Source of the DNA: Phycisphaeraceae bacterium
GTDB lineage: Bacteria; Planctomycetota; Phycisphaerae; Phycisphaerales; Phycisphaeraceae
Length of the DNA stretch: 9,283 nt
Assembly: GCA_007119405.1 (NCBI GenBank)
Contig: SKPT01000049.1
Coordinates: forward strand, 1 to 9,283
Reading direction: 5' to 3'
This document shows, piece by piece, positions 3,676 to 6,374 of the stretch; positions within the stretch are counted from its first letter, which is position 1; every line of letters starts with the position of its first letter. The translations under genes and the position numbers were made by a program. The notes beneath the pieces were generated by a model. It was not told where the DNA came from, ran no database searches, and was given only the letters and a program-made list of their open reading frames with translations.

Positions 3676-4350
3676 CTACAGCAGCGTCACGTCGTCGTCG
3701 GTGTCGCGATGCCAGCCTTGCCGGGATGTGTCGGCGGCGCCGTTGCTCGCGCCGGCGTGGGCGTTGCTTGACTTGATCTCGTCGAGCAGCGTACGGAGTG
3801 TCTCGTCGCCGTCGCGGCCGAGCATGAGGCTGCCGTGGAGCTGGCTCCAGAAGCGTCGGGCGGCGGCGTCGCCGAGCTGGGTGGCCCAGCCTTCGAGGAT
3901 GCGGCCGATGACACCGGGCAGCGTCGGCTCGCCGTGCGGGCCCGGGGCGGAGAGCCAGAACATCAGGCGGTAGTGATGCGGCGCCTCGGCGGCGGCCTGG
4001 AGATAGTGGCGCGCGGTGGCGGCGACGGGCTCGCCGGCCTCGACGCGCTCGGCGACGGGCTCGAAGCACTGCTGCGTCACGGCGTGCATCAGCGCCCGCT
4101 TGTCGGGGAAGAAGCGGTAGATCGAGCCCACCGCGCAGCCCAGGCGTGCGGCGATGCGGCGGATGGTCGCCCCGTCGTAGCCGAACTGCCGCAGGCACGT
4201 GTCGGTGACCTCGAGCATGCGCTGGCGGTGCAGGGGCGCGGCGGCGCTGGCGCTGGCGGGGGCGGCGCTGACGGGGGCGGCGCTGGCGGTTGAGGGGGCC
4301 GGGTCGGTCCCGGCGTGGGAGGTTACGGGATCATCCATGGCGTGCGTCAT
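3676..4350 (-). CDS. TetR/AcrR-family transcriptional regulator
   Basis: This 224-residue protein probably binds DNA as a dimer and releases it when a small ligand binds. The TetR-type helix-turn-helix is clear: RMLEVTDTCLRQFGYDG (44-60), then ATIRRIAARLGCAVGSIYRFFPDK (61-84), with the family's typical G.IY.FF.(D/N)K ending. The rest (about 88-195) is the helical ligand and dimerisation domain, with HHYRLMFWL at 125-133; the ligand cannot be read from sequence. The first 40 residues are low-complexity Ala/Ser/Pro and come from a 15-bp tandem repeat. The frame is open a further 63 codons upstream, but ATG 4350 is chosen because AAGGAGG lies 5 nt before it and a sigma70-like promoter lies just upstream. 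It is convergent with the secreted protein gene and divergent from the promoter at 4460-4487. The perfect inverted repeat at its leader suggests autorepression. Confidence 0.88.
   Translation of the reverse strand: MTHAMDDPVTSHAGTDPAPSTASAAPVSAAPASASAAAPLHRQRMLEVTDTCLRQFGYDGATIRRIAARLGCAVGSIYRFFPDKRALMHAVTQQCFEPVAERVEAGEPVAATARHYLQAAAEAPHHYRLMFWLSAPGPHGEPTLPGVIGRILEGWATQLGDAAARRFWSQLHGSLMLGRDGDETLRTLLDEIKSSNAHAGASNGAADTSRQGWHRDTDDDVTLL
4258..4287. repeat. 15-bp tandem repeat inside tetR N-terminal coding region
   Basis: Two adjacent 15-mers, GGGGGCGGCGCTGAC and GGGGGCGGCGCTGGC on the plus strand, differ by one base. A degenerate third copy lies at about 4240-4257. On the coding strand they give the Ala/Pro/Ser-rich tail before the helix-turn-helix. 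The 15-bp unit preserves frame, so copy-number change would lengthen or shorten the tail by five residues. Confidence 0.7.
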
Positions 4351-4368
4351 GTTCACCTCCTTGTGAAC
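4351..4368. promoter_or_regulatory. Inverted repeat over the tetR Shine-Dalgarno; possible operator or RNA hairpin
   Basis: GTTCAC (4351-4356) and GTGAAC (4363-4368) form a perfect 6-bp inverted repeat with a 6-bp spacer. It ends one base before the tetR start codon and contains the AAGGAGG ribosome binding site (4356-4362, minus strand). The predicted transcription start is near 4370, so the repeat sits at about +1 to +20. That position suits an autoregulatory TetR operator, or a short RNA hairpin partly masking the ribosome binding site. Confidence 0.5.
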
Positions 4369-4459: not shown

Positions 4460-4487
4460 TTGACCGGCCGCTCATGAAGCCGATAAT
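4460..4487 (+). promoter_or_regulatory. Sigma70-type promoter for the 4494-4843 transcript
   Basis: TTGACC (4460-4465; five of six -35 positions) and GATAAT (4482-4487; five of six -10 positions) are separated by 16 bp. This is the best promoter match on the plus strand in the window. Transcription would begin near 4494. It is divergent from the tetR promoter, with about 53 bp between the two -35 hexamers. Confidence 0.6.
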
Positions 4488-4688
4488 GAACATGCCGGCG
4501 AGGCGAGAGGAGACGGCCGGCGGGAAAACCCCGTCGCACCGCCTGGAGCCAACGCCGGCCGACCGCGGCGACGCCGTGGGCGCTGGGCCCCGTAAGACGT
4601 TATGGGGCGGTAATTCTCCGGCGGCCGCGCAGCCGGGACCGGCGCAACACCGGCCCGGGCCGGCGACGGCTGGAACGGTCCTTTGAAG

Positions 4689-4702
4689 AAGGAGGTGATC
4701 CA
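4689..4702 (+). promoter_or_regulatory. Exceptionally long Shine-Dalgarno sequence
   Basis: AAGGAGGTGATCCA is 14 nt complementary to the conserved 3' end of 16S rRNA (TGGATCACCTCCTT), and the next base G extends the match for 16S genes ending CTGGATCACC. GGAGG is 7 nt before the GTG at 4703, ideal spacing. Most genes have four to six paired bases. A full-length match should bind 30S subunits very tightly. Confidence 0.75.
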
Positions 4703-4753
4703 GTGGAATCTTCCTGTTGTTGTAGTCGTTGTCTCAGGAGCGAGCTGCGGTAG
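4703..4753 (+). CDS. 16-residue cysteine-rich mini-ORF (possible leader peptide)
   Basis: GTG start to TAG stop encodes MESSCCCSRCLRSELR, with four Cys among six residues (5-10). It is supported by the full-length Shine-Dalgarno 7 nt upstream. All four cysteines use TGT although the neighbouring genes favour G or C in third positions; Ser and Arg codons TCT, AGT and CGT continue the T-rich patch (4708-4735). The last codons (4742-4750) are themselves one arm of two competing RNA stems, so ribosome position could decide which forms. Polycysteine upstream ORFs that respond to cysteine supply are known in mycobacteria; a similar role here is inference. It might instead be a metal-binding or redox peptide, or not translated at all, with the region working as RNA. 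I do not recognise the peptide family. Confidence 0.5.
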   Translation: MESSCCCSRCLRSELR

Positions 4754-4804
4754 TTCAGCTCGACGGGGTTGCCCACTCCGCAGCTCCAACCAAAAGACGA
4801 CCCC
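4742..4804 (+). promoter_or_regulatory. Mutually exclusive RNA stems after the mini-ORF
   Basis: GAGCTGCGG (4742-4750), the end of the mini-ORF, can pair perfectly with CCGCAGCTC (4778-4786), or its first six bases with CAGCTC (4756-4761). In addition GGGGTTG (4765-4771) can pair with CGACCCC (4798-4804, one wobble), just before the terminator, and CGGGG/CTCCG (4764-4768 with 4775-4779 region) can form a 5-bp, 7-nt-loop hairpin. Several of these exclude one another, as in attenuators. Confidence 0.45.
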
Positions 4805-4810
4805 CTACGG

Positions 4811-4843
4811 CCCGCCCGGCGCATGCCCGGCGGGTCTTTTTCT
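4811..4843 (+). terminator. Rho-independent terminator
   Basis: The stem CCCGCC-C-GGC / GCC-C-GGCGGG (4811-4820 with 4825-4834; one C-C mismatch, GCAT loop) is followed directly by TCTTTTTCT (4835-4843). It lies 57 bp after the mini-ORF stop and ends the predicted 350-nt transcript. No gene follows for 320 bp, which argues for a stand-alone unit, though read-through into the downstream genes is possible. Confidence 0.8.
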
Positions 4844-5094
4844 GCGCCGCCAGGAACATTTGTGAGCCGGCCGAAGGCTGTTTTGTGCCGTGCAGGGCCG
4901 AAGCACACGGCACGCTGTCGGGATGCTGTGTGGCACGCGTCCCACCCGCCTTGCAAGGCAAGGCCGCAGTGACACGGACAAACCGCAACGCCAGCGGCCG
5001 ATGCGCCGGCGGCGCGTTTGCCCGGGGCACATCTGCTGCGGTGCGCCCCGGTACGGGCCTGGGCGAGAAACTTGAAAATTTTTTCCCCAGATGC
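4844..5094. other. Gene-free spacer
   Basis: I see no credible gene here: the frames open across it are antisense shadows or lack ribosome binding sites. It holds an 8-bp inverted repeat, GTGCCGTG / CACGGCAC (4885-4892 and 4906-4913, 13-bp loop), with no T-tract. Near its end lies the AT-rich tract GAAAATTTTTTCC (5074-5086), which stands out in GC-rich surroundings and sits about 18 bp upstream of the next proposed -35. Confidence 0.5.
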
Positions 5095-5132
5095 CCCGGG
5101 CCCTTCCCAGGAAGCTCCCCGGGCTTTAGAAT
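5095..5132 (+). promoter_or_regulatory. Promoter with nested palindrome upstream of the small membrane protein and sigma factor
   Basis: TAGAAT (5127-5132; five of six -10 positions) is 17 bp downstream of TTCCCA (5104-5109; four of six -35 positions), giving a start near 5139. The -35 is centred in CTTCC-CA-GGAAG (5103-5114), flanked by CCCGGG on each side (5095-5100 and 5118-5123). A nearly symmetric arrangement over a -35 suggests a binding site for a dimeric regulator. The AT-rich tract ending at 5086 may act as an UP element. Confidence 0.45.
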
Positions 5133-5137
5133 GGGCC

Positions 5138-5170
5138 GCGTGCACCCAACGGAGTGTGGCTCGTGCACGC
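5138..5170 (+). promoter_or_regulatory. Start-codon hairpin in the leader of the small membrane protein gene
   Basis: GCGTGCAC (5138-5145) and GTGCACGC (5163-5170) are perfect 8-bp reverse complements. The right arm begins with the proposed GTG start (5163), and the 17-nt loop contains the GGAG ribosome binding site (5151-5154). The left arm falls almost exactly at the predicted transcript 5' end, so the mRNA would begin with a hairpin burying its own start codon. Confidence 0.5.
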
Positions 5171-5498
5171 CAGGTTCGTTTCGAGCAAAGGAGTGCTCGC
5201 CATCCCTTCCCGCGTCATTGCAGCCAGCTTCGCGCTCACCAGCTTCGCCGCCGCGGCGCTGGCGGGTATCTACGTCGGCAACGCGGCCACGACCATACTC
5301 TGGCGCGCCACGTTGGTGATGATCGCCGCCTGGTTCATCGGGCTGCTGATCGGCAGCATCGCCCAGCGCGTCGTCGCGCTGCACGTCGAACGTCACAAGC
5401 ACGCGAACCCCATCCCCCAGCCCGAGCCGGAGCAGCAGGAAGCGGACTCCGACGGGCAGCGTCAGGATCAGGACCCGGCCCCGGCCGCGGCGTCCTGA
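5163..5498 (+). CDS. Small two-helix membrane protein upstream of the sigma factor
   Basis: The 111-residue product has no family I can name. After about 17 residues with positive charge, two hydrophobic helices are visible (about 18-40, VIAASFALTSFAAAALAGIY onward, and 48-70, RATLVMIAAWFIGLLIGSIA). A basic patch (HVERHKH) follows, then a 30-residue tail rich in Pro, Gln, Glu and Asp, probably disordered. GTG 5163 is chosen because GGAG (5151-5154) lies 8 nt before it; GTG 5154 is in frame but overlaps that site. The FliA-type sigma gene starts 60 bp downstream on the same strand, so the two are probably co-transcribed. In Planctomycetota fliA is often beside other flagellar genes, so a membrane role in motility or in controlling the sigma factor is possible, but unproven. 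It does not resemble the soluble anti-sigma factor FlgM. Confidence 0.65.
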   Translation: MHARFVSSKGVLAIPSRVIAASFALTSFAAAALAGIYVGNAATTILWRATLVMIAAWFIGLLIGSIAQRVVALHVERHKHANPIPQPEPEQQEADSDGQRQDQDPAPAAAS

Positions 5499-5512
5499 GC
5501 TGCGCTGACGGG

Positions 5513-5533
5513 AACCGCCGAGGCCCGGCGGTT
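5513..5533 (+). other. Hairpin between the membrane protein and sigma factor genes
   Basis: AACCGCCG (5513-5520) and CGGCGGTT (5526-5533) form a perfect 8-bp stem with a 5-nt loop, 14 bp after the upstream stop and 13 bp before the sigma factor's ribosome binding site. No T-tract follows. It may stabilise or process the shared mRNA, or give partial termination that lowers sigma factor expression. Confidence 0.45.
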
Positions 5534-5558
5534 GGTCAGCTAAGTCAAGGAGCAGACG

Positions 5559-6374
5559 ATGGCCAGATACCGACAACCGGCTCAATCCGCCACCGCCACG
5601 CAGCAGGCCTCCGTCGAGGAAGTGTGGGAGGAGTACCGCAAGACCGGCGACGAGCAGCTTCGCAACAAGCTCATGGAGCACTACCTGCCGCTGGTGCGCT
5701 ACAACGCCGAACGCATCCACGCCAAGCTGCCCGACGAGGTCGACGTCGAGGACCTGATGTCCGCGGGGATCTTCGGCCTCATGGACGCGATCGACGCGTT
5801 CGACCGCGACCGCGGCGTGAAGTTCGAGACCTACTGCGCCCCGCGCATCCGCGGCGCGATCCTCGACGAGCTGCGGGCGATGGACTGGGTGCCGCGCCTC
5901 GTCCGCTCGCGCTCCAGCCAGGTTGACCAGGCGCGCAAGCGACTGGAGATGCGCCTCGGCCGCACGCCCACGGACGACGAGCTGGCCAGGGAGATGAAGC
6001 TCTCGCCGGACGAGTACGCCAAGGTGCGCAAGGACGCCGGGGCCACGGGCGTGGTGTCGCTGTCGCGCAAGTGGTTCGAGACGGACTCGAACAAGGACGT
6101 GCGCGAGATCGACGTGCTCGAGGACGCCAAGCAGGCCAATCCCTTCAAGGCCGTGTCCAAGCGGGATCTGAAGAACCTGGTGACCAAGGGCCTGAGCCGC
6201 GCCGAGCGGTTGATCGTCATTCTCTACTACTACGAGGAGATGACGATGAAGGAGATCGGCGTGACGCTGGACCTGTCCGAGTCGCGGGTGAGCCAGATGC
6301 ACAGCTCGATCCTGGCGCGCCTGAAGGCGCAGCTCCAGCACCGGGACAAGGACCTGCAGACGGAGGATCGGTGA
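5559..6374 (+). CDS. fliA: RNA polymerase sigma factor, FliA/WhiG family (sigma-28 type)
   Basis: This 271-residue alternative sigma factor directs RNA polymerase to a dedicated promoter set, classically late flagellar genes. Region 2 spans about 34-118: LRNKLMEHYLPLVRYNAERI, then DLMSAGIFGLMDAIDAFDRD and VKFETYCAPRIRGAILDELR, ending in MDWVPRLVRS. Region 3 is about 119-165 (RLEMRLGRTPTDDELAREMK). Region 4 is about 206-260, with YYYEEMTMKEIGVTLDLSES and SRVSQMHSSI, the family's promoter-recognising helix-turn-helix. Length and domain order are normal for the family. ATG 5559 has AAGGAG 6 nt upstream (5547-5552). No flagellar structural gene lies in the window and no flgM-like gene is adjacent, so the regulon is inferred from family. 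Sporulation- or development-type paralogues (WhiG, SigF) are an alternative. Confidence 0.9.
   Translation: MARYRQPAQSATATQQASVEEVWEEYRKTGDEQLRNKLMEHYLPLVRYNAERIHAKLPDEVDVEDLMSAGIFGLMDAIDAFDRDRGVKFETYCAPRIRGAILDELRAMDWVPRLVRSRSSQVDQARKRLEMRLGRTPTDDELAREMKLSPDEYAKVRKDAGATGVVSLSRKWFETDSNKDVREIDVLEDAKQANPFKAVSKRDLKNLVTKGLSRAERLIVILYYYEEMTMKEIGVTLDLSESRVSQMHSSILARLKAQLQHRDKDLQTEDR

Follow-up and report, generated by a model that had tools for sequence, protein, structure and literature searches.

The DNA analyzed here, hereafter the window, is the whole 9,283-nt stretch from a Phycisphaeraceae bacterium, of which positions 4460 to 4843 hold the RNA unit under study. Judging from its sequence, this unit is with near certainty one copy of a structured RNA family that many Planctomycetes possess, almost always as a single copy, and that other bacteria may have as well. 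The window carries the four elements by which the family is defined in our models R2 and R3, namely an extended Shine-Dalgarno (SD) sequence, a mini-ORF, an outer stem and an inner hairpin. Our searches of openly licensed papers turned up no description of this RNA family.

Anatomy of the RNA unit in the window

The unit comprises the following features, from promoter to terminator.

4460-4487, + strand: sigma-70-like promoter TTGACC-16-GATAAT with 10/12 matches, the -10 element lying at 4482-4487
4588-4607, + strand: P2 hairpin CCCCGTAA-GACG-TTATGGGG, capped by a GACG tetraloop (pair probabilities 0.88-1.0)
4618-4673, + strand: P3 region, with arms CCGGC (4618-4622) and GCTGG (4669-4673) flanking a variable stem (from a 14-homolog alignment)
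4689-4702, + strand: extended SD AAGGAGGTGATCCA, an exact 14-nt complement of the 16S 3' tail
4703-4753, + strand: mini-ORF, GTG to TAG, 16 codons encoding VESSCCCSRCLRSELR, with the TAG stop at 4751-4753
4742-4786, + strand: outer stem of 9 bp, GAGCTGCGG (4742-4750) with CCGCAGCTC (4778-4786) (probability 1.0)
4756-4771, + strand: inner hairpin CAGCTC-GACG-GGGTTG, 6 bp, starting two bases 3' of the stop (probability 0.99-1.0)
4809-4841, + strand: intrinsic terminator, stem of 8 + 3 bp with a C.C mismatch, then TTTTT (minimum-energy fold)

A preliminary description of this DNA had proposed a promoter with five-of-six plus five-of-six matches, a 14-nt perfect complement to the 16S tail, inverted repeats and an intrinsic terminator. 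All of these were recovered. The outer stem and both GACG-capped hairpins, P2 and the inner one, had ensemble probabilities of 0.88-1.0. The proposed structured RNA, with its own promoter and terminator and a mini-ORF behind an extreme SD, is supported. Transcription is predicted to start near 4494, and the transcript would span ~4494 to 4841, about 345 nt. A promoter scan revealed two promoter-like sites between 4300 and 5600, against a mean of 0.1 in shuffled sequence, and the fold of 4494-4850 had a z score of -3.5, with equal stability reached in none of 100 dinucleotide shuffles. The terminator at 4809-4841 was missed by a simple terminator scan, probably on account of its C.C mismatch; the sole site listed by that scan, 4868, was no better than chance. 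One alternative hairpin, tested in the window with regard to a terminator/antiterminator arrangement, had an ensemble probability of 0. The P3 region, which contains a GGCGGC...GACGGC motif, also had a probability of 0 in the window's own single-sequence ensemble, which counts against P3.

The predicted duplex between the SD of the window and the 16S tail amounted to -31.9 kcal/mol. The longest SD match among seven other start sites of the window was the 10-nt match of the TetR gene, a divergent gene with AAGGAGGTGA before its ATG at 4350 (window 4348-4362, minus strand). The 5' arm of the outer stem is exactly the last three sense codons of the mini-ORF, and the stop falls between the end of that arm at 4750 and the start of the inner hairpin at 4756. 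Because homologs share the same anatomy, we judge the arrangement of the window to be far beyond chance.

In agreement with the preliminary description, which had recognized no known RNA family, an Rfam 15 search of the window yielded no match at the RNA unit up to E = 5. The only match up to that value lay elsewhere in the window (MIR2109, 20 bits vs a cut-off of 100), and the Rfam covariance models of tmRNA and 6S RNA gave no match in the window. At the nucleotide level, plasmid sequences gave a single match, which covered 12% of the query and was uninformative.

Homologs in Planctomycetota and covariation of their stems

Genome contigs were scanned with a first pattern, consisting of the 16S-tail complement and three Cys codons, which yielded 15 loci. 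Two of these (L002 from Pirellulales and L008 from Planctomycetota) displayed the intergenic layout of the window, one (L004) proved to be a different element, one (L013) was truncated by a contig end, and 11 looked like chance or ordinary sequence. A sequence-only model, R1, was built from four rows (the window, L002, L004 and L008), of which L004, from an Oligoflexia genome, was later rejected as belonging to a different, multicopy element. In the phylum to which L008 belongs, titled Planctomycetota, R1 matched 27 of 294 genomes. On judging 26 new R1 loci, 18 were scored as members, four as antisense 16S ends and four as other; L041, L052, L054 and L056-L060 were rejected after inspection. 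The antisense-to-16S reading of L052, L057, L058, L059 and L021 was itself dropped, these loci being plain 16S 3' ends, and they were used only for reading the planctomycete 16S tail.

R2, a structured covariance model built from nine members, matched 57 of 248 genomes of one class at E ≤ 0.01, with a single match in 56 of the 57, and 84 of the 294 genomes of the phylum Planctomycetota, with a single match in 82 of the 84. R3, built from 86 matches and run at E ≤ 0.01 with a laxer filter, matched 16 of 40 Planctomycetota genomes, the E-values of both models being rough. The R2 searches used a restrictive filter, with 14-17 candidates scored per genome out of up to thousands; the lack of an R2 match in 210 of the 294 genomes does not equate to absence of the RNA, and incomplete recall may or may not explain it. 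For the analyses of the SD, the reading frame and the neighborhood, 125 loci (86 + 39), chosen as matches of R1, R2 or the first pattern, were fetched and re-scored. The window scored 64 bits with the family model, but it is a member of the training set.

Other small-ORF elements were met in these searches. The multicopy element of the Oligoflexia MAG, of which 14 copies were inspected (L004/L017, L020, L022 and L024-L035), has two copies in tandem, 399 bp apart. In most copies AAGGAGGTGATCC is preceded by a TACCTCC stretch resembling an anti-SD, and there is an ORF of ~44 aa, hydrophobic in its C-terminal half, together with the arms GCCAAACCAAGC/GCTTGGTTTGG. The sequence suggests a repeated small-ORF RNA, either type-I-toxin-like or mobile. 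L060, from a Planctomycetota-phylum genome, has at its center two tandem mini-ORFs with strong SDs, encoding the near-identical basic peptides VKKSKPSPKK and VKKGKGCSPKK. In L007, a first-pattern match from an Armatimonadetes MAG with a layout unlike that of the present family, an extended SD precedes a very hydrophobic ORF of 16 codons (MIFLLLLIALFLLAAR) at about 5070-5150.

The stems of the 3' domain covary. In a MAFFT alignment of nine members, which leaves out L045, L048, L050 and L051 of the 13 then known, 91.0% of the cells of the outer stem and inner hairpin were paired, against a shuffled mean of 73.8% and 26-44% for slid versions, a control that flatters the helices because these were drawn by eye on the same sequences that were later counted. 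Ten of the 12 pairs were changed on both sides (5/7 homologous pairs in the outer stem and 5/5 in the inner hairpin), and the covariation score of the domain was reached by none of 500 shuffles, which do not correct for the relatedness of the sequences. A similar picture was obtained for P2 and the closing arms of P3 in a MAFFT alignment of 14 members of the window's group, with 96.6% of cells paired vs 83.1% in shuffled and 26-56% in slid versions and 8/13 pairs double-changed, subject to the same caveats on helices drawn by eye and on relatedness. P2 accounted for double changes in 6/8 pairs, with 94.5% of cells paired, and the P3 arms for 2/5, with 100% paired. This alignment leaves out L067, L072, L073, L081, L082, L086, L087 and L091 of 22 upstream regions viewed, most of which have a P3 that deviates or is of another length. 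The preliminary description had named a covariance search as the check on the stems, with a lack of compensatory changes in relatives as the finding that would speak against them; compensatory changes were seen in the homologs.

The P2 loop was GACG in 14/14 members of the window's group, and the inner loop GACG in 8/9 members and GGCG in one. Loops of other clades vary around ACG or GCG, and several planctomycete groups beyond that of the window have an upstream domain of different appearance. Pairing of the GACG loops with 16S RNA near the decoding site was also considered, and was weakened as a candidate by the variation of the loops between clades.

Reading frame, neighborhood and look-alikes in other phyla

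The extended SD is a feature of the whole family. Its contiguous complement to the planctomycete 16S tail had a median of 13 nt and reached at least 12 nt in 88/125 homologs, or 106/125 when one A>G wobble was allowed, compared to a median of 4 nt, with one case reaching 12, in 447 neighboring ATG ORFs of at least 150 aa, a control weakened by the fact that some of these starts are surely mis-called. Median duplex energies were -30.3 kcal/mol in the homologs vs -9.0 kcal/mol in the 447 neighboring ORFs, and all 125 homologs fell below the first percentile of the latter; since the models themselves select for the SD, these figures describe the family and do not test it.

The start codon following the SD was GTG in 80 loci, ATG in 27 and TTG in 18, a start being found in 125/125 loci by a looser rule and missing from 10/125 by a stricter one. 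The position of the stop was scored on alignment columns taken from R2-fitted alignments, the models being ignorant of the reading frame. The first in-frame stop fell between the 5' arm of the outer stem and the inner hairpin in 112/125 homologs (80/86 + 32/39), as opposed to 3/125 in each of the other two frames (+1 and +2: 1 and 2 of 86; 2 and 1 of 39), counts in which related sequences are not independent, L146-L149 being nearly identical. The 13 deviating homologs include very short ORFs that end slightly earlier (L079, L080, L084 and L181) and two, L167 and L168, in which the reading frame runs on. This test replaced a naive one that found the loops in only 74/125 loci, several of them misplaced, and in which the distance from stop to loop was 4-22 nt for 76% of cases in frame 0 and for 3% and 9% in the other frames.

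Peptide lengths across the 125 loci had a median of 12 residues, a minimum of 6 (e.g. VKGDKR), a 95th percentile of 16 and a maximum of 41. Among the 113 distinct peptides under 30 residues, median pairwise identity was 12.5%, and hydropathy was low (median GRAVY -0.66, with 12/113 above 0.5). Since lengths differ and identity is this low, the peptide is not what is conserved across clades; as far as the sequences tell, the mini-ORF is conserved by position and not by sequence. Peptides are similar within clades, e.g. YDCSSQRGGTA and NCDCTKGLHA, and given this similarity a role for the peptide is possible. The short polycysteine ORF of the preliminary description held up as an ORF and not as a polycysteine trait defining the family: Cys occurs in 61 of the 113 distinct peptides and is not conserved, and the polycysteine, or cysteine-attenuation, reading was dropped upon finding homologs devoid of Cys.

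Upstream of 64/124 homologs lay a promoter pair with at least 9/12 matches, vs 6% of mononucleotide shuffles, and downstream of 59/123 a terminator, scored as a T-run behind a stem of 7 or more, vs 1.9% of mononucleotide shuffles; 60/124 and 64/123 loci, respectively, were without one by these criteria. The window's neighboring proteins, annotated with Pfam domains, are a TetR regulator, a 114-aa protein and a sigma factor. Relatives of these three were found at E ≤ 1e-4 at 0/124 other loci, within 1.7 kb, and at 0/22 others in a second set, most with up to about 7 kb of flanking sequence. Two earlier suggestions, that the RNA might be a leader and that the divergent TetR gene might control it, thus find no support at the other loci. 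Neighbor families, from ORFs called by simple rules, recur only within lineages, the largest at 13/125 loci. The nearest conserved downstream ORF was on the same strand in 38/55 cases and on the opposite strand in 17/55, and the nearest conserved upstream ORF on the same strand in 48/70 and on the opposite one in 22/70. The conserved co-directional target gene expected of an attenuator or leader was not found at the homolog loci, mostly within 1.7 kb. The upstream neighbor in one group is presumably, from its sequence, a metal-type ABC transporter operon, and in other groups we take the neighbors to be a Der-like GTPase or a polyphosphate-kinase-like gene. A conserved protein of ~65 aa (e.g. 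MKAETFLAELNRLRKDLDEDPTDIEWLTLHHVFCFVSYKMGDFQKYIDEQ...) lies upstream of the RNA in L094, L096, L100, L103, L104 and L106, adjoining the metal-transporter operon in five of these six loci.

Outside Planctomycetota, R3 at E ≤ 0.01 matched 23/41 genomes of a phylum in which a MAG bearing the title Gemmatimonas phototrophica is provisionally placed. Of 20 loci fetched from this phylum, all but L229 were inspected, and fifteen of these 19 (L205, L211-L223 and L225) displayed an extended SD, a 9-13-codon ORF and inverted repeats around its end, the latter judged by eye, and four did not; peptides include VSSCIPLRRSTT, LSSTCTAGRLIT and MSEMTSGGGCR, and L213, L216 and L223 sit just after a gene that we take to be ABC-permease-like. 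At E ≤ 0.001, R3 matched 3/40 genomes in the phylum of a proteobacterial MAG, with a similar layout in 3/4 matches, 3/40 genomes of the Aminicenantes-containing phylum (presumably Acidobacteriota), with a similar layout in 2/3 matches, and 0/41 genomes of the Armatimonadetes-containing phylum; 13 assorted genomes gave three weak matches. The Pseudomonadota loci L230-L232 and L019 carry ACGAAAGGAGGTGATCC with the short ORFs VSYLKRCHLAGIAR, MSHGSAKGSVQFVGETRR and VSHCLNQPLTSAYRTWNVASGAHA, of which L230 has a terminator-like repeat behind it and L019 is truncated by a contig end. These cross-phylum look-alikes may share a common descent or may be a product of convergence.

Proposed mode of action and alternatives

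Throughout the family the SD, the start, the place of the in-frame stop and the stems are kept, and the peptide and the neighbors change; read most simply, this points to translation itself as what counts. We propose, with confidence about evenly balanced, that the unit is a stand-alone gene whose product is a structured RNA acting in trans and not a messenger for a functional peptide. This RNA would capture a ribosome, and a short, obligatory round of translation would open its 3' domain. The near-maximal SD would capture a 30S subunit, upon which the ribosome would start at the GTG (ATG or TTG in others) and make a throw-away peptide, mostly of 6-19 residues. With the end of the ORF forming the 5' arm of the outer stem, the ribosome would have to move into this stem and unwind it on its way to the stop, and would then halt against the GACG-capped inner hairpin. 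The RNA would therefore adopt two states, ribosome-occupied with the stem open or free with the stem closed, and may in this manner report on or buffer free ribosomes in trans, with the 5' GACG-capped domain as its probable partner-binding part. Transcription, translation, stem opening, trans action and a ribosome-sensing role are what we infer from the conserved pattern, and we favor a ribosome-responsive trans-acting RNA over fixing its exact role, be it sensing ribosome supply, sequestering 30S subunits or exposing a pairing or protein-binding surface.

The kept reading frame (112/125 by the stop test), the similar residues within clades, such as YDCSSQRGGTA and NCDCTKGLHA, and the presence of Cys in 61/113 distinct peptides would also suit a small mRNA or dual-function RNA with a microprotein as its product. 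We consider this unlikely, as length (mostly 6-19 aa) and sequence (12.5% median pairwise identity) differ between clades and some of the residues, for example KGL, overlap with the sequence of the outer stem; the conserved functional peptide of a dual-function sRNA was not found across clades. If the tail pairing alone mattered and translation were incidental, the RNA might be a 30S/16S decoy or a 16S-maturation guide, with which the length of the complement agrees (13 nt in the median; 12 nt or more in 88/125 homologs, or in 106/125 with one A>G wobble); a start codon and an in-frame stop position are unneeded for pure pairing, however, and their retention renders this proposal quite improbable.

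The succession of mini-ORF, stem and terminator is like that of attenuators, and the next gene is co-directional in the window, as is the nearest conserved downstream ORF in 38/55 loci. That the RNA is a leader or attenuator of a downstream gene, here of the 114-aa protein and sigma factor (5154-6374), is nonetheless very unlikely, with relatives of these genes at 0/124 other loci, the largest recurring neighbor family at 13/125 loci and the nearest downstream ORF on the other strand in 17/55. A strong SD and stable mRNA structure are typical of some type I toxins, and a type I toxin-antitoxin unit would combine these with a small toxic peptide; we give this hardly any credence, given peptides that are mostly hydrophilic (median GRAVY -0.66, 12/113 above 0.5) and one match per genome in most positive genomes.

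Among described systems, the cysS-associated uORFC-8-2 motif (PMC8632094) is an example of a translation-coupled attenuator with a leader peptide. Attenuators of this type resemble the family in combining a short ORF, an RNA fold for which ribosome position can matter and a terminator; the family differs in being stand-alone, without a shared downstream gene or conserved regulatory codons, and in its extended SD. The dual-function sRNA rnTrpL/peTrpL (PMC10117765), in which rnTrpL is described as leaderless, is akin to the family in being an independent sRNA; its ORF, of 14-15 codons, is translated, as that of the family would be; in the family, unlike rnTrpL, the peptide is not conserved, the stop is tied to RNA structure and the SD is extended. 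Spot 42, which appears among the references of that source, is grouped here with the dual-function sRNAs with mini-ORFs. Proteobacteria and Planctomycetes are the groups listed for the Rhodopirellula-1 motif (Weinberg 2010, PMC2864571), which has no Rfam accession in that table and is entered as an ambiguous, probably cis-regulatory RNA; judged by this entry, the motif is a candidate earlier glimpse of the family. Finally, initiation with extended SDs in Staphylococcus aureus, as presented in PMC13009471, involves start-codon-proximal SD pairing and many unannotated small ORFs; the extended, start-codon-proximal pairing is alike, whereas it is a general initiation feature there and belongs to a dedicated RNA family here.

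tmRNA (RF00023) is likewise a structured RNA with a short reading frame that acts on ribosomes, as the present RNA would; the family differs in having its own SD and start codon, and the tmRNA model did not match the window. As separate tmRNA genes scored over the cut-off in 14/16 member genomes, the family RNA does not replace tmRNA there. 6S RNA (RF00013) occupies RNA polymerase, and the likeness to it lies in a possible logic only, that of a single-copy RNA occupying a core machine, which here would be the ribosome. The Rfam 6S model scored over its cut-off in 1/16 member genomes (L209 in G028, a clear 6S RNA at 59.5 bits), gave a weak 6S-like match in another (L210 in G081) and none in the 14 others, lineages that the model may simply miss; the family as a functional stand-in for 6S RNA is possible. 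A wider proposal, which we regard as rather unlikely, is that ribosome-occupancy RNAs form a pan-bacterial class that would be for the 30S subunit what 6S RNA is for RNA polymerase. These stand-alone RNAs would capture initiating ribosomes by a near-perfect SD, force one short round of translation and switch fold at a fixed stop. Besides Planctomycetota, the class would span the Aminicenantes phylum, Pseudomonadota and a fourth phylum, in which the look-alikes of similar anatomy were seen.

Even if the RNA has a role other than that proposed, it is unusual for a reading frame to be constrained through the place of its stop and not through its peptide. Should the ribosome-responsive reading hold, a dedicated RNA that engages the ribosome by an extremely strong initiation signal, but has no conserved product, would be widespread in a phylum whose cell biology is itself unusual. 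Translation capacity would then be sensed or buffered by a new means, for which 6S RNA offers a parallel in transcription.
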